Shown piece after piece: positions 7,518 to 15,927 of a stretch of 64,000 nucleotides of DNA. This stretch comes from Mesorhizobium sp. B2-4-15 (lineage in GTDB: Bacteria > Pseudomonadota > Alphaproteobacteria > Rhizobiales > Rhizobiaceae), in contig NZ_VFUZ01000004.1 of NCBI RefSeq assembly GCF_006658505.1, positions 1 through 64,000 of the forward strand, written 5' to 3'. The notes beneath the pieces were generated by a model. It was not told the origin of the DNA. It worked only from the letters and a program-made list of their open reading frames with translations, and ran no database searches. Numbering within the stretch: the stretch's first letter is position 1; each line of letters begins with the position of its first letter. Made by a program: the position numbers and the translations under genes.

Positions 7518-7898
7518 TTAGGCCGAGGCGCGCGCCTCTGCCAGCGCCTTCAGGTCGGCCGGCTTCAGCTCGACCGATTCGCCGCAGCCACAGGCCGAGC
7601 TCTGGTTCGGGTTATGGAAGGTGAAGCCCGTGCGCAGCGTCGTCTGCTCGAAATCCATCTGCGTGCCGAACAGGAACAGCGCCGCTTCCGGCGCGACATA
7701 GACGTGCGCGCCATCGCGCTCGATGTGGTCGTCCTTGGGATTGGGCTCGGTCACCAGGTCGACCGTGTATTCCATGCCGGCGCAGCCGCCCTTCTTGATG
7801 CCGAGGCGGATGCCATGCGCGTTCTCGCGTGTGGCGACGATCTCGCGCACCCGCGCGGCGGCCTTTTCGGTCATCGTGATGACGGCAAAGCGTCCCAT
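7518..7898 (-). CDS. sufA: Fe-S cluster assembly A-type carrier SufA
   Basis: This A-type carrier (126 residues) receives Fe-S clusters from the SufBCD scaffold and passes them to apoproteins. The three conserved cysteines are visible: one in KKGGCAGMEY near residue 39 and two in SACGCGES near 103-105. Length and motif spacing match HesB/IscA/SufA proteins. It is the last gene of the minus-strand suf operon, separated from the DUF59 gene by about 100 bases. The ATG at 7898 follows a GAAGGA ribosome site. The long gap allows a secondary promoter but none is clear. Confidence 0.93.
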   Translation of the reverse strand: MGRFAVITMTEKAAARVREIVATRENAHGIRLGIKKGGCAGMEYTVDLVTEPNPKDDHIERDGAHVYVAPEAALFLFGTQMDFEQTTLRTGFTFHNPNQSSACGCGESVELKPADLKALAEARASA

Positions 7899-7999: not shown

Positions 8000-8401
8000 C
8001 TAGTACCAGCCAACCGCCACCTGTGCCTCTTCCGACATGCGGTCGGGCGACCAGGGCGGATCGAAGGTCATGTTGACCTCCACACCGGACACGCCTTCGA
8101 CCGCCCCAACCGCATTCTCGACCCAGCCCGGCATTTCGCCGGCCACCGGACAGCCGGGCGCGGTCAATGTCATGTCGATCTTGACCGAGCGGTCGTCCTC
8201 GATGTCGATCTTGTAGACGAGGCCAAGTTCGTAAATGTCGGCCGGAATTTCCGGGTCATAGACGGTCTTCAGCGCCGAAACGATGTCGTCGGTCAGCCGC
8301 GCCAGTTCGTCGGCGGGAATGGCCGAGGCCGAGACGACGCTGTTGGCGCCGGCTTCCGGGGAGGTTTCGGCAGTGGTGCTCACATCATCCATGGTCGTCA
8401 C
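8000..8401 (-). CDS. sufT: SUF-associated DUF59/MIP18 protein (SufT/SufX)
   Basis: This 133-residue protein carries a DUF59 (MIP18/PaaD) domain from about residue 35. The diagnostic stretch is VYDPEIPADIYELGLVY, followed by TLTAPGCPVAGEMPGWVE with the conserved Cys. Homologues act as Fe-S maturation factors; in Agrobacterium the gene in this position is called sufX. The first 30 residues are Ser/Thr/Ala-rich and probably flexible. The GTG start at 8401 overlaps the sufS stop (GTGA), pointing to translational coupling. An ATG three codons later (8392) is a possible alternative. It sits between sufS and sufA. Confidence 0.88.
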   Translation of the reverse strand: MTTMDDVSTTAETSPEAGANSVVSASAIPADELARLTDDIVSALKTVYDPEIPADIYELGLVYKIDIEDDRSVKIDMTLTAPGCPVAGEMPGWVENAVGAVEGVSGVEVNMTFDPPWSPDRMSEEAQVAVGWY

Positions 8402-9639
8402 CCGAAAAATTTGCGCGCTCTTTCCAGCGCCTCGGCCAAAGCGTCGACTTCGGCCCTGGTATTATACATGCCGAACGATGCCCTGCATGTGGAGGTTACG
8501 CCAAAGCGTTTCAACAGCGGCTGGGCGCAATGGGTGCCGGCGCGCACTGCCACGCCCTGCCTGTCTATCACCATCGACACGTCATGGGCATGAATGCCCT
8601 GCAGCTCGAAGGAGATGATGGCGCCCTTGCCGGGCGCATCGCCGAAGATGCGCAGCGAGTTGATGGCGCGCAGCCGTTCATGGGCGTAGTTCTTGAGGTC
8701 TTCCTCATGCGCGGCGATGCGTTCCCGACCGACAGAGTCCATGTAGTCGAGCGCGGCACCCAGCCCGATCGCCTGCACGATCGGTGGCGTGCCGGCCTCG
8801 AAACGATGCGGCGGATCGTTGTAGGTGACGATGTCTTCCGTCACCTCCTCGATCATCTCGCCACCGCCCATGAAGGGGCGCATGCTCCCGAGAATGTCCT
8901 TCTTGCCGTAGAGAACGCCGATGCCCGAGGGGCCATAGACCTTGTGGCCGGTAAAGACGAAGAAATCGCAATCGAGATCCTGGACGTCGATCGGCATATG
9001 CACGGCGCTCTGGCTGCCGTCGACGAGCACTGGAATGCCGCGCGCATGCGCGATGCGCACGATCTCCTTGATCGGCGTCACCGTGCCCAACGCATTCGAC
9101 ATCTGCGTGATGGCGACAAGCTTCGTCCTGTCGGTCAGCCGCTTTTCGAATTCCTCGATGTGGAAGACACCGAGATCGTCGACCGGCACCCAGACCAGCC
9201 TGGCGCCCTGGCGCTCGCGTATAAAATGCCAGGGAACGATATTGGAATGGTGCTCCATGATCGACAGCACGATCTCGTCGCCCTCGCCAATATTGGGCAT
9301 GCCATAGCCATAAGCCACCGTGTTGATCGCCGACGTCGTATTCGAGGTGAAGACGATGTTTTCCGTGCTTGGCGCGTTGAGGAAGCGGCGCACCGTCTCA
9401 CGCGCCTTCTCATAGGCATCGGTCGCGGCATTGGACAGGAAATGCAGGCCGCGATGGACGTTGGCATATTCCTGGGAATAGGCGTGCTGGATCGTATCGA
9501 GCACCACCTGCGGTTTCTGCGCCGAAGCGCCATTGTCGAGATAGACCAGCTTCTTGCCATAGACTTCCCGCGACAGGATCGGAAAGTCGCGGCGGATCGC
9601 CTCGACGTCGTAGGGGATGGTTTCGACTTTCCGGTCCAT
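8398..9639 (-). CDS. sufS: SufS-type cysteine desulfurase
   Basis: This PLP enzyme takes sulfur from cysteine as a persulfide for Fe-S cluster assembly. The product is 413 residues. It has the group II features: the PLP-binding Lys in FVFTGHKVYGPSG and the catalytic Cys in RAGTHCAQPL near the C-terminus, which matches E. coli SufS. The start at ATG 9639 has AAGGA about seven bases upstream; an ATG 14 codons earlier is less well supported. It is the second cysteine desulfurase of this operon (S1 in the Agrobacterium sufS2BCDS1XA naming). No sufE is seen in the window, so its sulfur acceptor is unknown here. Confidence 0.95.
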   Translation of the reverse strand: MDRKVETIPYDVEAIRRDFPILSREVYGKKLVYLDNGASAQKPQVVLDTIQHAYSQEYANVHRGLHFLSNAATDAYEKARETVRRFLNAPSTENIVFTSNTTSAINTVAYGYGMPNIGEGDEIVLSIMEHHSNIVPWHFIRERQGARLVWVPVDDLGVFHIEEFEKRLTDRTKLVAITQMSNALGTVTPIKEIVRIAHARGIPVLVDGSQSAVHMPIDVQDLDCDFFVFTGHKVYGPSGIGVLYGKKDILGSMRPFMGGGEMIEEVTEDIVTYNDPPHRFEAGTPPIVQAIGLGAALDYMDSVGRERIAAHEEDLKNYAHERLRAINSLRIFGDAPGKGAIISFELQGIHAHDVSMVIDRQGVAVRAGTHCAQPLLKRFGVTSTCRASFGMYNTRAEVDALAEALERARKFFG

Positions 9640-9659
9640 TTCGAAGTCCTTGCCGCTCC

Positions 9660-9745
9660 AGGGCAGCGTTTCGTCCAGCACCCCTCATCCGTCTTGGCGC
9701 TTCGCGCCAATCCACCTTCTCCCACAAAGGGGAAGGGAAGAGTGC
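9660..9745. repeat. Mosaic repeat inside the suf operon
   Basis: The 100-base gap between sufD and sufS contains CCCCTCATCCG (9681-9691), shared with the copies at 104 and 7399. It is followed by the palindrome TTGGCGCTTCGCGCCAA (about 9693-9710) and a TTCTCCCACAAAGGGGAAG block. It would be transcribed within the suf mRNA and could fold there. Confidence 0.6.
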
Positions 9746-11014
9746 TTATCCGTGTGTCACGAACCATTCGTCGAGCCGCGCTTCCAGCGCCTCGACGATC
9801 GTCTCGTCATCCATCTCCTCGATCACTTCGGCGACGAACGCTTTCACCAGAAGGCCCCGTGCGGTCTTCTCGTCGACGCCGCGCGCCATCAGGTAGAACA
9901 GATGGTCGTGGTCGATCTCGGTGACCGTCGCGCCATGGCCGCAGACGACGTCGTCGGCGAAGATTTCGAGTTCGGGTTTGGTCGAGAACTCGCCATCGTC
10001 CGACAGAAGCAGCGTGTTGCAGGCCATCTTGGCGTTGGTCTTCTGCGCATATTGATGGACGTTGATGCGCCCCTGGAAGACACCGCGCGCCTTGCCGGTG
10101 ACGACATTGCGGATCACTTCCGTCGATGTCGTGTGCGGCACGGCGTGGTCGAGCACCATGGTGACGTCGGTGTGGCTGTCGCCCGCCAACAGGTTGATGC
10201 CACGCAACTTGAAGTCGGCGCCCTCGCCGGTGGTCTTGATCACGATCTCCTGGCGCACCAGTCTCCCGCCGGCGTTCATGACGAACAGCGTCAGCTTCGC
10301 GTTCTTGCCGATATGGGCCTTGAACTGCGCCAGATGCGTGGCCGTGTCCGGCTGCTCCTGCACGATCAGCCAGGTCACCTCGGCGCCCTCGCCAAGCACA
10401 AGCTGGCTCACCGAGCTGACCAGCGCCACGCCCTCACCTGCCTGACGTTCGACGATAACAGCTTTGGCTCCAGCGCCGACGCGTACAGGTAAACGCACAT
10501 GGGTCTGGCCGCCTGCCTGCAAATTCTGCAATTCGAGCGGCTTTTCCAGCTCGGCGCCGTGGGCAATGTCAATGAAATAACCGTCGGCGACAAAGGCGGT
10601 GTTCAGCGCACCGATAGCGTCGTCGCTGCCATAGGGGGCGAGGCCCGGCGCAATGCTGCCATCGGTCAGCTTTTCCGACAGGCGCTGGACGCTCACGCCC
10701 TCGACGACCGGCGTCTTGGCGCTCGACACGCCGTTCAGCATGGCCAGAACCGTCGAGCCTTCAACGATTGGCGCAATGGCTTTCGCCGCGGCGGCCGGAT
10801 CGAAATCCGGAACCGTATTCAACAGCCGGCGCAGATCGGTGTAGTGCCAGGATTCGACGCGCCGCGTCGGCAGGCCGTGCTTGATCGCTTCGATGGCATC
10901 GTCGCGCTTCAGCATCACCGCGCCGTCACCCGGCAGCAGCGACAGCCGGTCCCCGAACGCATCGATCAGCGCTGTCTCGGCCGGCGTCCGCTGCGGTTGT
11001 GCGTGCATGTTCAT
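9746..11014 (-). CDS. sufD: Fe-S cluster assembly protein SufD
   Basis: SufD joins SufB and the SufC ATPase in the SufBC2D scaffold on which Fe-S clusters are built. The product is 422 residues. The C-terminal two thirds is the parallel beta-helix SufBD domain, and the conserved His is seen in VVCGHGATVTEID, equivalent to the functional His of E. coli SufD. I chose the ATG at 11014 because GAGG lies eight bases upstream; two other ATGs (11032, 11008) are close. The start lies 20 bases past the sufC stop. The gap to sufS holds a repeat element. Confidence 0.94.
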   Translation of the reverse strand: MNMHAQPQRTPAETALIDAFGDRLSLLPGDGAVMLKRDDAIEAIKHGLPTRRVESWHYTDLRRLLNTVPDFDPAAAAKAIAPIVEGSTVLAMLNGVSSAKTPVVEGVSVQRLSEKLTDGSIAPGLAPYGSDDAIGALNTAFVADGYFIDIAHGAELEKPLELQNLQAGGQTHVRLPVRVGAGAKAVIVERQAGEGVALVSSVSQLVLGEGAEVTWLIVQEQPDTATHLAQFKAHIGKNAKLTLFVMNAGGRLVRQEIVIKTTGEGADFKLRGINLLAGDSHTDVTMVLDHAVPHTTSTEVIRNVVTGKARGVFQGRINVHQYAQKTNAKMACNTLLLSDDGEFSTKPELEIFADDVVCGHGATVTEIDHDHLFYLMARGVDEKTARGLLVKAFVAEVIEEMDDETIVEALEARLDEWFVTHG

Positions 11015-11033
11015 CAGTCTTGCCTCTGCCATT

Positions 11034-11792
11034 TCACGCGGCTTCGCCGATGACGCCGGCATAGCCGTTGGCTTCGAGGTCGAGCGCCAGCGACTTGTCA
11101 CCCGACTTGATGACCTGGCCCTTGTAGAGTACGTGCACGCTGTCGGGCACGATGTGCTCGAGCAGGCGCTGGTAGTGGGTGATGACCAGGAAGGCGCGGT
11201 CGGGCGAACGCAGCGCGTTGACGCCATCGGACACGATTTTCAGCGCATCGATGTCGAGGCCGGAATCGGTCTCGTCGAGCACGCAGAGCTTTGGCTCCAA
11301 AAGCTTCATCTGCAGGATCTCGGCGCGCTTCTTCTCGCCGCCGGAGAAGCCGACATTGAGCGGCCGCTTCAGCATCGCCATGTCCATGCTGAGCGAGGCG
11401 GCGGCTTCCTTCACCCGCTTCAGGAATTCCGGAATCTTCAGCGGCTCCTCGCCGCGCGCCTTGCGCTGCTCGTTCATCGCCACCTTCAGGAATTCCATCG
11501 TCGCCACGCCCGGTATCTCCATCGGATACTGGAAGGCGAGGAAAATGCCTGACGTGGCGCGCTCGGCCGGATCCATTTCGAGGATAGACCGGCCGTTGTA
11601 GAGGATGTCGCCCTCGGTCACCTCATAGTCCTCACGGCCGGCGAGGATATAGGACAGCGTCGATTTGCCCGACCCATTCGGGCCCATGATCGCGGCGACC
11701 TCGCCGGCCTTCACCGTCAGGTTCAGGCCGCGGATGATTTCGGTGCCGTCATCGACGATGCGGGCATGCAGGTTCTTGATCTCAAGCATCAT
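11034..11792 (-). CDS. sufC: Fe-S assembly ATPase SufC
   Basis: SufC is the ABC-type ATPase of the SufBC2D complex; it drives conformational change in the scaffold rather than transport. The 252-residue product shows Walker A MGPNGSGKST near residue 37, the signature FSGGEKKRAEI near 150 and Walker B CVLDETDSGLD, all SufC-like. Two adjacent ATGs (11792 and 11789) can start it. Its first 11 bases overlap the end of the small membrane-protein gene upstream, implying coupled translation. Confidence 0.96.
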   Translation of the reverse strand: MMLEIKNLHARIVDDGTEIIRGLNLTVKAGEVAAIMGPNGSGKSTLSYILAGREDYEVTEGDILYNGRSILEMDPAERATSGIFLAFQYPMEIPGVATMEFLKVAMNEQRKARGEEPLKIPEFLKRVKEAAASLSMDMAMLKRPLNVGFSGGEKKRAEILQMKLLEPKLCVLDETDSGLDIDALKIVSDGVNALRSPDRAFLVITHYQRLLEHIVPDSVHVLYKGQVIKSGDKSLALDLEANGYAGVIGEAA

Positions 11793-12072
11793 TCTCTACT
11801 TTCGCGTTCTTGTTGTTCTCGACGCTCGATCCTTGACGGGATCTCCCCAGAAGCGCGCCCGCAAGATTGCCGGTAACGAACATCCAGCCAAAAAACCCAA
11901 CCGCGCCTAGGCCCGCAATCGAACCACCAATATTCTTTACCGAACTCAAGCCAAACATTGCGCCTATCAGAGCCACCACGGCACCTCCAATAGCCAGCGT
12001 CAGCAAGAGCATCAGAACGACGACTATCAAGCTCTCGATTCGTTCGAAGAATTTCCAAGAGCGCCGTTCCAT
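11782..12072 (-). CDS. Small two-helix membrane protein within the suf operon
   Basis: This 96-residue protein has a charged N-terminus (MERRSWKFFERIES) and two hydrophobic helices at about residues 14-41 (IVVVLMLLLTLAIGGAVVAL) and 46-75. The second is glycine-rich, and a short polar C-tail follows. It starts four bases after the sufB stop and overlaps the sufC start by 11 bases, so it is certainly co-transcribed and probably translated. I do not recognise the family; standard suf operons have no membrane protein here. Its codons are visibly more A/T-rich than those of sufB and sufC, which suggests late acquisition. It might tether the Suf scaffold to the membrane, but this is speculation. 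Confidence 0.75.
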   Translation of the reverse strand: MERRSWKFFERIESLIVVVLMLLLTLAIGGAVVALIGAMFGLSSVKNIGGSIAGLGAVGFFGWMFVTGNLAGALLGRSRQGSSVENNKNAKVENDA

Positions 12073-12076
12073 CTAG

Positions 12077-13594
12077 TCAGCCCACGCTTCCCTCAAGCGA
12101 GATGCCGATCAGCTTCTGCGCCTCGACCGCGAACTCCATCGGCAGCTGCTGGATGACATCCTTGACGAAGCCGTTGACGATCAGAGCGATGGCTTCCTCT
12201 TCCGGAATGCCGCGCTGCATGACGTAGAACTTCTGGTCCTCGGAAATCTTCGAGGTCGTCGCCTCGTGCTCGAACTGCGCCGTCGAGTTCTTGGCTTCCA
12301 TGTAGGGTACGGTGTGGGCGCCGCATTGGTCGCCGATCAGGAGCGAGTCGCAGTTGGTGAAGTTGCGTGCGTTGGTCGCCTTGCGGTGCGCCGAGACCTG
12401 GCCGCGATAGGTGTTCTGCGAAAAGCCGGCGGCAATACCCTTGGAGATGATGCGGCTCGATGTGTTCTTGCCGAGATGAATCATCTTGGTGCCGCTATCG
12501 ACCTGCTGATAGCCGTTCGACACGGCGATGGAATAGAACTCGCCGGAGGAATCGTCGCCGCGCAGGATGCAGCTCGGATACTTCCACGTGATGGCCGAGC
12601 CGGTTTCGACCTGCGTCCACGAGATCTTCGAACGGTCGCCACGGCAGTCGCCGCGCTTGGTGACGAAGTTGTAGATGCCGCCCTTGCCCTCGGCATCGCC
12701 GGGGTACCAGTTCTGCACGGTCGAATATTTGATCTCGGCATCGTCGAGCGCCACCAGTTCGACGACAGCGGCGTGAAGCTGGTTCTCGTCGCGCTGCGGC
12801 GCCGTGCAGCCTTCGAGGTAGGAGACGTAGGCCCCCTCCTCGGCGATGATCAGCGTGCGCTCGAACTGGCCGGTGTTCTTCTCGTTCATACGGAAATAGG
12901 TCGACAGCTCCATCGGGCAGCGCACACCCTTGGGCACGAAGACGAACGAGCCGTCGGTAAAGACAGCCGAATTCAGCGTGGCGTAGAAATTGTCTGACGT
13001 CGGCACCACCGAGCCCAGATATTTCTGCACCAGTTCGGGATGCTCGCGGATCGCTTCCGAGATCGAGCAGAAGATGACGCCGGCCTGCGCCAGTTCCTTC
13101 TTGAAGGTGGTGACGACCGACACGGAATCGAACACCGCGTCGACCGCGACGCGGCCCGACTTGTAGACATTGTCGCTGACTTCCTCGAGTTCGGAAGCAT
13201 CGGTCTTCTGGACACCGGCCAGGATTTCCTGCTCCCTCAGCGGAATGCCGAGCTTCTCGTAGACCTTCAGCAGTTCGGGATCGACATCGCTCAGCGACTT
13301 CGGGCCGGGCGTGCTCTTGGGCGCCGCATAATAATAGATGTCCTGGAAATCGATCTTGGGATAGTTGACGCGCGCCCAGGTCGGCTCCTCGAGCGTCAGC
13401 CAGCGGCGATAGGCTTCCAGCCGCCATTCCAGCATCCAGGACGGTTCGTCCTTCTTGGCCGAAATGAAACGGATAATGTCTTCGCTCAGGCCCTTGGGGG
13501 CCTTGTCGACAGCGATATCGGTCTGGAATCCATATTTATACTGGTCGACATCGATCTTGCGGACTCGATCGATCGTCTCCTGCACAGCAGGCAT
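12077..13594 (-). CDS. sufB: Fe-S cluster assembly scaffold SufB
   Basis: SufB is the scaffold subunit that accepts sulfur and assembles nascent Fe-S clusters with SufC and SufD. The product is 505 residues, against 495 in E. coli. Family signatures include [31 protein letters not shown] and, near the C-terminus, [19 protein letters not shown], whose first Cys corresponds to the essential Cys405 of E. coli. The ATG at 13594 follows GGAG by seven bases. It lies 240 bases downstream of the sufS2 gene and is followed by the small membrane protein and sufC. Confidence 0.97.
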
Positions 13595-13835: not shown

Positions 13836-15014
13836 CTACGCGGCTTTGCCTCTATCCGCCTTGTCTCTGGCGGTTTGGCGCGCGGCGATCCCCGCCAGCG
13901 CGGCGCGGAACAGTTCGATGTCCTCGGCGCCCGTCGCCGAACCGATCGACACGCGCAAGGCGCCGAGACTGTCGCCGTAGCCCATCGCCTTCAGCACATG
14001 GCTCGGCCCGACCTTGCCCGACGAGCAGGCGGAGCCGGCCGACAGCGCCACACCGGCCAGATCGAACGCAATCTGCGCGGTTTCCGCCTTGACGTTCGCA
14101 ATAGCGAAGAATGTCGTGTTGGCAAGCCTTGGCGCGCCGGTTCCAAAGATTTCCACGTCCGGCGCCAGCGTTTTCACGATGGCTTCGATCTCGTCACGGC
14201 GCTGCCGCACCGCATCCATAGCCTGCAATCCGGCCAGAGCCTCACGCGCGGCCGCGCCAAAACCGGCGATGGCGGCGAGGTTTTCCGTTCCGCCGCGATG
14301 GCCCTTTTCCTGGCCACCACCGTTGATCAGAGGCTTGGGCATCATCAGATCGGCGGCGGCGACAATGGCGCCGACGCCCTTGGGGCCACCGATCTTGTGC
14401 GAGGACAGAATAAGATAATCGGCGTAACCCGCTGGCAGATCGATCGAAACGCGGCCCGCGGCCTGAACGGCGTCGACGGCGAGAATACCGCCCGCCGCCT
14501 TGACAATCCCGGCGATCCGATCGATCGGTTGGATGACGCCGGTCTCGTTGTTGGCGGCATGGATCGCCACCAGCGGCAGGCCATCCGCCTTGTCATGACC
14601 GCCAAGCGCGGCGGCCAGGGCTTCAAGATCGGCTATGCCATTGGCATCGACGCCGATGCGCGTCACCTGCGCTGCCGGGAAGCGCCCGCCATTCAACAGG
14701 CAGGGGTGGTCGGCCGCCGATACGTAAAGCCGGCTCATGCGAACGCTGCCACGCCCCATCTGCCAGTCGGGGGTCAGCAGCGTCGAGGCCGCTTCGGTCG
14801 CGCCGGAGGTGAACACAACATGCTCGGGCCTGGCATTCACCAGCGCCGCAACCTCACGCCTCGCAGTCTCGACCAGGCGCCGCGCGGCGCGCCCTTCGGC
14901 GTGGACCGAGGAGGGATTGGCGGACAGGTCAAGCGCCGCGACCATAGCCTCGCGTGCCGCCGCGAGCAGCGGAGCGCTGGCATTGTAGTCGAGATAGGCG
15001 CGTTTTGCGGCCAT
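13836..15014 (-). CDS. sufS2: IscS/NifS-type cysteine desulfurase (SufS2)
   Basis: This is a group I cysteine desulfurase (392 residues) and the first gene of the suf operon. It begins with the family's AYLDYNASAPL, has the PLP Lys in ILSSHKIGGPKG and the catalytic Cys loop in GSACSSGKVGPSHV. Having both an IscS-like enzyme and a SufS in one operon matches the sufS2BCDS1XA arrangement known from Agrobacterium. The ATG at 15014 is preferred because the family starts close to YLDYN and a GGA lies upstream; ATG 15044 would add ten residues. The promoter region upstream carries an Irr-type box. Confidence 0.93.
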   Translation of the reverse strand: MAAKRAYLDYNASAPLLAAAREAMVAALDLSANPSSVHAEGRAARRLVETARREVAALVNARPEHVVFTSGATEAASTLLTPDWQMGRGSVRMSRLYVSAADHPCLLNGGRFPAAQVTRIGVDANGIADLEALAAALGGHDKADGLPLVAIHAANNETGVIQPIDRIAGIVKAAGGILAVDAVQAAGRVSIDLPAGYADYLILSSHKIGGPKGVGAIVAAADLMMPKPLINGGGQEKGHRGGTENLAAIAGFGAAAREALAGLQAMDAVRQRRDEIEAIVKTLAPDVEIFGTGAPRLANTTFFAIANVKAETAQIAFDLAGVALSAGSACSSGKVGPSHVLKAMGYGDSLGALRVSIGSATGAEDIELFRAALAGIAARQTARDKADRGKAA

Positions 15015-15145
15015 TTTCGTCCAGTCGGTCCCTTCAGAAGCCATTCCGCTGTCGTATGGCGTTATTTCCTTGAAATTCCAAGGCGAGCCGTCCTATTTAC
15101 GCGGCTTGCGGCGCGGGTAGCCAGGCTCGACGTCTGGCCACCCAG

Positions 15146-15162
15146 TTTTGAATAGTTCTAAA
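15146..15162. promoter_or_regulatory. Iron control element (putative Irr box)
   Basis: TTTTGAATAGTTCTAAA is a near-perfect dyad. It matches the rhizobial iron control element TTTAGAA-N3-TTCTAAA at 13 of 14 defined bases. It begins four bases past the -10 of the proposed suf promoter, so a bound Irr regulator would cover the transcription start. The distance to the sufS2 ATG is about 130 bases. Confidence 0.65.
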
Positions 15163-15166
15163 CTAG

Positions 15167-15195
15167 CTTCTAAGAAGACGCTCGCCCTGCGTCAA
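15167..15195 (-). promoter_or_regulatory. Promoter of the suf operon
   Basis: On the minus strand TTGACG (15190-15195) is followed after 17 bases by TAGAAG (15167-15172). The Irr-type box lies immediately downstream. The predicted transcript has a leader of about 140 bases before sufS2. Confidence 0.5.
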
Positions 15196-15252
15196 GGCCA
15201 GAGGAAGACACGTTCCGGGCGCCGCGCATTCGTATACCAAGTGGAGTATTTT

Positions 15253-15927
15253 ATGCCTGAGGTCATTTTCACCGGTCCGGCCGGCCGCCTGGAGGGACGC
15301 TACCAGCCCTCCAAGGAAAAGAGCGCGCCGATCGCCATCGTCCTGCATCCGCACCCGCAGTTCGGCGGCACGATGAACAACAAGATCGTCTACGACCTCT
15401 TCTACATGTTCCAGAAGCGTGACTTCACCACGCTGCGCTTCAATTTCCGCGGCATCGGCCGCAGCCAGGGCGAATTTGATCACGGCACCGGCGAATTGTC
15501 GGACGCGGCCGCCGCTCTCGACTGGGTGCAGTCGCTGCATCCGGATTCCAAGAGCTGCTGGGTCGCCGGTTATTCGTTCGGTTCGTGGATCGGCATGCAG
15601 CTCCTGATGCGCCGGCCCGAGATCGAAGGCTTCATCTCGATCGCGCCGCAGCCCAACACCTATGATTTCTCGTTCCTGGCGCCCTGCCCGTCATCCGGCC
15701 TGATCATCCATGGCGATGCCGACAAGGTGGCGCCGCCCAAGGATGTGCAAGGCCTGGTCGATAAGCTGCACACGCAAAAGGGCATCACCATCACGCAGAA
15801 GACCTTGCCCGGCGCCAACCATTTCTTCGCCAATGACGCCGACCTTTTGATCGAGGAATGTGCCGACTATCTCGATCGGCGGCTCGCCGGCGAGCTGTCG
15901 GATCCACGGCCGAAGCGGCTGCGCTAG
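15253..15927 (+). CDS. Alpha/beta hydrolase
   Basis: This 224-residue single-domain alpha/beta hydrolase has the nucleophile elbow AGYSFGSW near residue 111 (Ser), an Asp in IHGDADKVAPP and a His in PGANHFFAND, giving a complete catalytic triad. The N-terminal VLHPHPQFGGTMNNK motif marks the family often annotated as predicted alpha/beta hydrolase of the YghX/CocE-like group, conserved in rhizobia but of unknown substrate. The ATG at 15253 follows GGAG by six bases; a longer in-frame start at 15148 would run through the suf regulatory region. It is divergent from suf and could share its control region. Confidence 0.88.
   Translation: MPEVIFTGPAGRLEGRYQPSKEKSAPIAIVLHPHPQFGGTMNNKIVYDLFYMFQKRDFTTLRFNFRGIGRSQGEFDHGTGELSDAAAALDWVQSLHPDSKSCWVAGYSFGSWIGMQLLMRRPEIEGFISIAPQPNTYDFSFLAPCPSSGLIIHGDADKVAPPKDVQGLVDKLHTQKGITITQKTLPGANHFFANDADLLIEECADYLDRRLAGELSDPRPKRLR

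Follow-up and report, generated by a model that had tools for sequence, protein, structure and literature searches.

In 2006, Rodionov and co-workers reportedly predicted Irr boxes. The nearest described system to the present locus is that of Rhizobium leguminosarum, in which suf is under RirA control and also under Irr control (PMC5863699). Irr acts as a repressor or an activator depending on the position of its box (PMC7762939). In Rhodobacter sphaeroides, the start of mbfA was mapped inside its Irr box, and this was read there as agreeing with repression (PMC3413700). Two descriptions speak against a direct role of Irr at suf. The predicted Irr box of the R. sphaeroides isc-suf promoter P2 was unbound in vitro, whereas Irr did bind a site located approximately 50 nt before the P3 start (PMC6956336). 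The suf genes of Sinorhizobium meliloti belong to the RirA regulon, yet they are not iron-responsive (PMC6386902). No description of Irr-suf control in Mesorhizobium appeared among the matches listed in a literature from which most subscription papers were absent.

The locus lies in the window, i.e., the whole analysed stretch of 64,000 nucleotides, which was located on contig C34 of the genome (G000, 6.09 Mb). It shares with the R. leguminosarum system the Fur-family regulator Irr, the suf operon and the rhizobial host (PMC5863699). Because Irr control of suf has already been reported in that species, the claim made here is not new in kind. The 15146-15162 segment would be an Irr operator at the start of suf transcription which lowers suf at low iron and haem, and we hold this reading to be highly probable.

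The candidate Irr box on the suf side, TTTTGAATAGTTCTAAA, matches TTTAGAA-N3-TTCTAAA with one mismatch at 15146-15162, in agreement with the earlier note. On the suf strand, the predicted box is read as TTTAGAA-CTA-TTCAAAA. It was the sole match in the window at up to three mismatches. Shuffles of the window gave a mean of 0.30 matches at this threshold, and 27 of 100 shuffles held at least one.

A genome-wide scan for such motifs, proposed in the earlier note, returned four places at up to one mismatch (two exact and two with one) against 0.043 expected, and each of them lies at suf, at an iron gene or at an Fe-S gene. Allowing two mismatches raised the count to seven, against 1.4 expected. 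No clear enrichment was seen at up to three mismatches, i.e., 31 places against 25.8 expected and 81 for the backwards control pattern, and the information is therefore mainly in the best mismatch class. A first-order Markov model, for which the window served as training sequence, supplied the expected counts.

The three sister sites were assigned to genes as follows. One exact box was placed 16 bp before the start codon of mbfA, whose product was identified by the equivalog model of the iron exporter MbfA (574 bits). The other exact box was found between the genes of imelysin (PF09375), presumably an iron-linked protein, and of a FAD/NAD reductase (G000:C9:63598-63614, i.e., 1501-1517 of locus L001). 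It lies approximately 250 bp from the imelysin start codon and approximately 160 bp from that of the reductase. The remaining box with one mismatch is located 31 bp before the gene of a Nfu_N/NifU protein, i.e., a Nfu-type Fe-S scaffold. Together with suf, these places look like a coherent iron regulon.

The mbfA system, known from R. sphaeroides and from the MbfA of Agrobacterium and Bradyrhizobium, is another close likeness to the suf box, and the genome carries an exact box before its own mbfA. The R. sphaeroides mbfA box contains the start site (PMC3413700), as the suf box would according to the start predicted here. MbfA exports iron, whereas suf makes Fe-S clusters. The suf box also differs from the mbfA box in one conserved departure from symmetry, TTC[A/G]AAA. 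Position 14 of the box was A in all 40 loci of the genus and G or A in all 34 loci of the Rhizobiaceae group.

The conservation of the box was compared in three sets. The genus set comprised the 40 of 41 drawn genomes that have the desulfurase, own genome included. The named relatives were the best 80 of 563, chosen by the hydrolase, and share some species with the genus draw. The order-wide set comprised 115 of the 116 non-genus genomes with a hydrolase match, one partial match being omitted. At up to two mismatches, the box was present in every suf locus of the genus (38 with one mismatch and two with two), in 75 of the 80 named relatives (72 with one, three with two) and in 62 of the 115 order-wide loci outside the genus (6 exact, 28 with one and 28 with two). 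The desulfurase was found in 97 of the 115 order-wide stretches, and 54 of those 97 had the box. No box of this quality was found within 450 bp of the hydrolase in 53 of the 115 loci, 43 of them among the 97 with desulfurase. These gaps, in an order where nearly all genomes encode Irr, and the five named loci without the box weigh against the operator reading. Shuffled upstream sequences gave no box at the same threshold (0/40 and 0/80 with dinucleotide shuffling, 0/115 with mononucleotide shuffling). These counts express constraint and not probability, because related sequences are not independent.

These numbers make it barely credible that the box is a chance match in an AT-rich promoter. 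The single mismatch, and the sites at three mismatches that were not clearly enriched in the genome, would be in line with chance, but the small expectation at up to one mismatch and the retention of the box in the genus and in 75 of 80 named loci stand against it.

The five named loci that lack the box were L132 (no desulfurase found), L143 (Brucella sp.), L147 (Bartonella apis), L152 (Falsochrobactrum) and L188. L143, L147 and L152 have four mismatches at the suf box, and related records keep it. The main text of a Brucella DAP-seq paper (PMC10374146) does not contain the word suf, in line with the poor match of the box in the Brucella record L143.

Three Fur-family proteins were found in the genome, and the one on contig C9 was recognized as Irr by two NCBI equivalog models, i.e., NF045678 with 223 bits (cut-off 150) and NF045677 with 207.6 bits (cut-off 170). 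It was the one Irr match in the genome, so the homologue on which the earlier note had made its claim depend is encoded. An HHH stretch is readable in the protein sequence; the haem site of Irr is described as a conserved HXH (PMC7762939). Co-occurrence of Irr and the box across the order was dropped as an uninformative test, because 116 of the 121 genomes of an order-wide set have Irr above the cut-off. With Irr encoded, the box conserved in all three sets and the sister sites at iron or Fe-S genes, the proposed Irr-type element is supported. RirA was also present among the Rrf2-family proteins (NF008886, 284 bits, cut-off 193).

The suf genes are encoded on the minus strand. The first is a NifS/IscS-type cysteine desulfurase (13836..15044), sufS2-like by position, whose best models scored below the equivalog cut-offs. 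The others are sufB (12077..13594; NF008773, 906 bits), a 96-aa ORF between sufB and sufC (11782-12072) that is hydrophobic by eye and has no Pfam match, sufC (11034..11792; TIGR01978), sufD (9746..11020, start assumed; TIGR01981), sufS (8398..9681; TIGR01979), and the genes of a SufT-type FeS_assembly_P protein (8000..8401; PF01883) and a SufA-type Fe-S_biosyn protein (7518..7898; PF01521). From the sequence comparison, translation of the desulfurase probably starts at the ATG at 15014 and not at the first ATG at 15044. The second ATG keeps its position in 39 of the 40 genus loci, a stop lies between the places of the two ATGs in 15 of 40 when the frames are read directly, and an in-frame stop inside the match was reported for 21 of the 40 genus desulfurase matches. 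With the start at 15014, the suf leader would be approximately 145 bases.

The suf promoter was predicted on the minus strand as TTGACG-N17-TAGAAG, with the -35 element at 15190..15195, identical across 30 aligned genus sequences, and the -10 element, called from sequence and alignment, at 15167..15172. The four bases CTAG separate the -10 from the box, which confirms the claim that the box starts four bases past this promoter. No promoter was detected on either strand of 14950-15300 by an automatic sigma-70 scan that used E. coli criteria, and the call is therefore based on position and conservation. A promoter of the TTGAC-N17-TA type stands just before the box in all 40 genus loci and in 75 of the 80 named relatives. 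When spacers of 16-19 were permitted, the best spacer was 17 in each of the 40 genus loci and of the 75 named loci with the box. The gap between the -10 and the box was 4 bp in 39 genus loci and 3 bp in one; among the named loci with the box, it was 4 bp in 60 of 75, 3 bp in 12, and 2 or 5 bp in three.

Transcription starting 7-9 bases after the -10 would begin at approximately 15158-15160, i.e., within the box. The segment is very likely an Irr operator that sits where suf transcription starts, and repression of suf by Irr at low iron is the likely direction of its effect. When iron and haem are low, apo-Irr would bind the box and block RNA polymerase, and suf expression would fall. When haem is plentiful, Irr would release the box and suf would be transcribed. 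We infer the binding, the direction of the effect and the exact suf start from the box, the promoter-like hexamers, their spacing, the conservation, the presence of Irr and the other boxes in the genome.

Irr can also activate, depending on box position (PMC7762939), and the bound protein might raise suf or the divergent hydrolase instead of repressing suf. This is distinctly unlikely, as a box starting 4 bp past the suf -10 should cover the start, a position that was read as repression at mbfA (PMC3413700). For the hydrolase, the box would be downstream of the start.

The region over the suf -35 differs between the groups. TGA-N9-TCA is the predicted RirA motif and was found in five of ten RirA ChIP peaks (PMC8822346). 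The loci were divided into a Rhizobiaceae group and a Phyllobacteriaceae-like group from list rank and record titles, with unplaced 'Rhizobiales bacterium' records included. Three Hoeflea loci without a RirA box, two Fulvimarina, Aureimonas, Aurantimonas, Bartonella, L132 and L153 were omitted from these groups. The motif lies over the suf -35 in all 34 Rhizobiaceae-group loci with the Irr box, whereas it was absent there from the 40 genus loci, window included, and from the 33 Phyllobacteriaceae-like loci. In one of these 33 loci, the motif occurs at another place within the stretch searched. Across the full set of 75 named loci that carry the Irr box, 35 cases were counted, the additional one being L153. 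The present locus thus differs from the R. leguminosarum system in that no RirA box lies over its suf -35, whereas Rhizobiaceae-group loci have both boxes.

It could be argued that RirA, as an Rrf2-type regulator, exerts the main control of suf, and that Irr binds the box weakly as a minor modulator. RirA is encoded in the genome, its motif overlies the suf -35 throughout the Rhizobiaceae group, and the Irr box over P2 of Rhodobacter was unbound (PMC6956336). However, the 40 genus loci keep the Irr box with no TGA-N9-TCA either in the suf promoter or anywhere in the stretch that runs from the start of the hydrolase to 130 bp beyond the box. Since the motif was present in only half of the ten ChIP peaks (PMC8822346), RirA may bind without it, but a leading role of RirA at this promoter is unlikely. 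Direct repression by Irr remains the preferred reading.

At the place of the RirA box, the genus has a palindrome of its own, TTGACGC-N7-GCGTCTT, at 15175..15195 (minus strand), over the suf -35 and spacer. GAC-N11-GTC was found at this position in 36 of 40 genus loci, and the full palindrome GACNN-N7-NNGTC in 35. It was rejected as a regulon motif. In the genome, only the suf copy was exact and one further place had one mismatch. With two mismatches allowed, the forward places numbered 25 and the reverse places 21, compared with 11 and 21 for the backwards pattern, and this indicates no clear regulon.

An IscR type 1-like motif reads TTGACT-N4..6-AGTCGG. By this strict pattern, it was found at the suf promoter in none of the 40 genus loci and in 4 of the 62 order-wide loci with the box. 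In L216, L222, L223, L240, L241 and similar loci of several distant families, TTGACT...AGTCGG lies over the suf -35, and an Irr-like box with 2-3 mismatches stands next to it.

The block between the box and the first suf gene was near-invariant among 30 aligned genus sequences, with apparent hairpins, and a leader RNA was considered for it and rejected. If the conserved stretch belonged to the initially transcribed region or formed a structured leader RNA of suf, the box would not be a protein operator. Folding of the leader was more favourable than that of its shuffles (z -2.83), and 37 of the 40 genus loci have an intact H3 stem. However, no Rfam match up to E 5 was found in 14900-15300, and the stems fade outside the genus, i.e., H3 was intact in 19 of 33 Phyllobacteriaceae-like loci and in none of 33 Rhizobiaceae-group loci, although the box persists there. 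The box is moreover an inverted repeat in agreement with a known operator, and it occurs again at three unrelated loci, which makes a purely RNA-based explanation highly improbable. A promoter is preferred over a leader RNA for this block, because the other strand reads CTTGAA-N18-TA with the spacer fixed at 18.

The gene on the other side is an alpha/beta hydrolase at 15253..15927 on the plus strand. Its nearest solved relative is Atu1826 (PDB 2i3d, E 4e-131), and the gene was found in 82 of the 84 genera sampled in the order. Among its named relatives, Mesorhizobium records ranked first, with identities of up to 100%. From sequence and conservation, its promoter was predicted beyond the box on the plus strand, with the -35 TTGAAA at 15070..15075, the -10 TATTTA at 15094..15099 and a start at approximately 15105-15108. 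The pattern CTTGAA[A/T]-N18-TA[A/T] is present there throughout the genus set (40 of 40) and in 70 of the 75 named loci that carry the box. Other spacers from 13 to 22 gave none, except 21 (five) and 22 (three) in the named set. The opposite strand gave none at any spacer in the genus and named loci, and dinucleotide shuffles gave 0 and 0.06 on average. In a looser search with TTGAA and the best -10, the spacer was 18 in all 40 genus loci and in 73 of 75 named loci. The pattern is weak outside these groups, as 15 of 25 order loci examined had no promoter candidate for the hydrolase, and the scan with E. coli criteria mentioned above likewise left this promoter undetected.

A strongly conserved block was observed on the plus strand at 15060-15115, which contains CTTGAA-N18-TA and a GCGNNATTT stretch upstream of it. 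The block is likely the hydrolase promoter, and an activator site may lie upstream of its -35. An RpoH promoter for the hydrolase was rejected; CTTGAA resembles the RpoH-like motif of Rhizobium etli, cTTGaa-N16-CgATaT (PMC4167512), but the spacing is longer here.

If the far-side CTTGAA-N18-TA drives the hydrolase, the suf and hydrolase promoters face each other and the box lies between their starts. The leaders would then overlap in antisense by approximately 50 bases, and the box would be approximately 40-57 bases into the hydrolase transcript. Between the hydrolase -10 and the box lie 24 to 49 bases, depending on the anchored locus, and each of the two elements is therefore anchored on its own. 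In E. coli, argECBH and bioA/bioBFCD have face-to-face promoter pairs that share an operator. The present locus would resemble those systems in having facing promoters for divergent genes with the operator between the start sites. They differ in that the hydrolase promoter here is predicted and the joint control of both genes is putative.

As suggested in the earlier note, it is possible that the hydrolase falls under the same Irr box. Such control would be geometrically unusual, because the likely hydrolase promoter lies beyond the box. Bound Irr may hinder elongation of the hydrolase transcript, or it may shield the hydrolase from collision with suf transcription, although both are speculative. 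In a wider reading, one Irr site would gate two facing promoters, with bound Irr shutting the suf start and acting as a roadblock or a shield for the hydrolase transcript. Irr would be the only iron regulator directly at suf in Mesorhizobium, because the RirA box would have been lost and the GACGC-N7-GCGTC palindrome would have replaced it. As a whole, this reading is tentative and more doubtful than probable.

With this box, the connection between Irr and suf reaches Mesorhizobium, and the comparative evidence for it is strong. Across these families, the Irr box would seem to be the more stable element of suf control, whereas the neighbouring Rrf2-type box comes and goes. If the wider reading is true, the two types of promoter would behave differently. 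Where RirA represses at high iron and Irr at low iron, as the boxes of Rhizobiaceae suggest, suf would stay nearly flat with iron, whereas with Irr alone in Mesorhizobium, suf should rise with iron. If the facing promoters are real, the hydrolase would be mechanically tied to Fe-S assembly, and this would be a hint where to seek its function.
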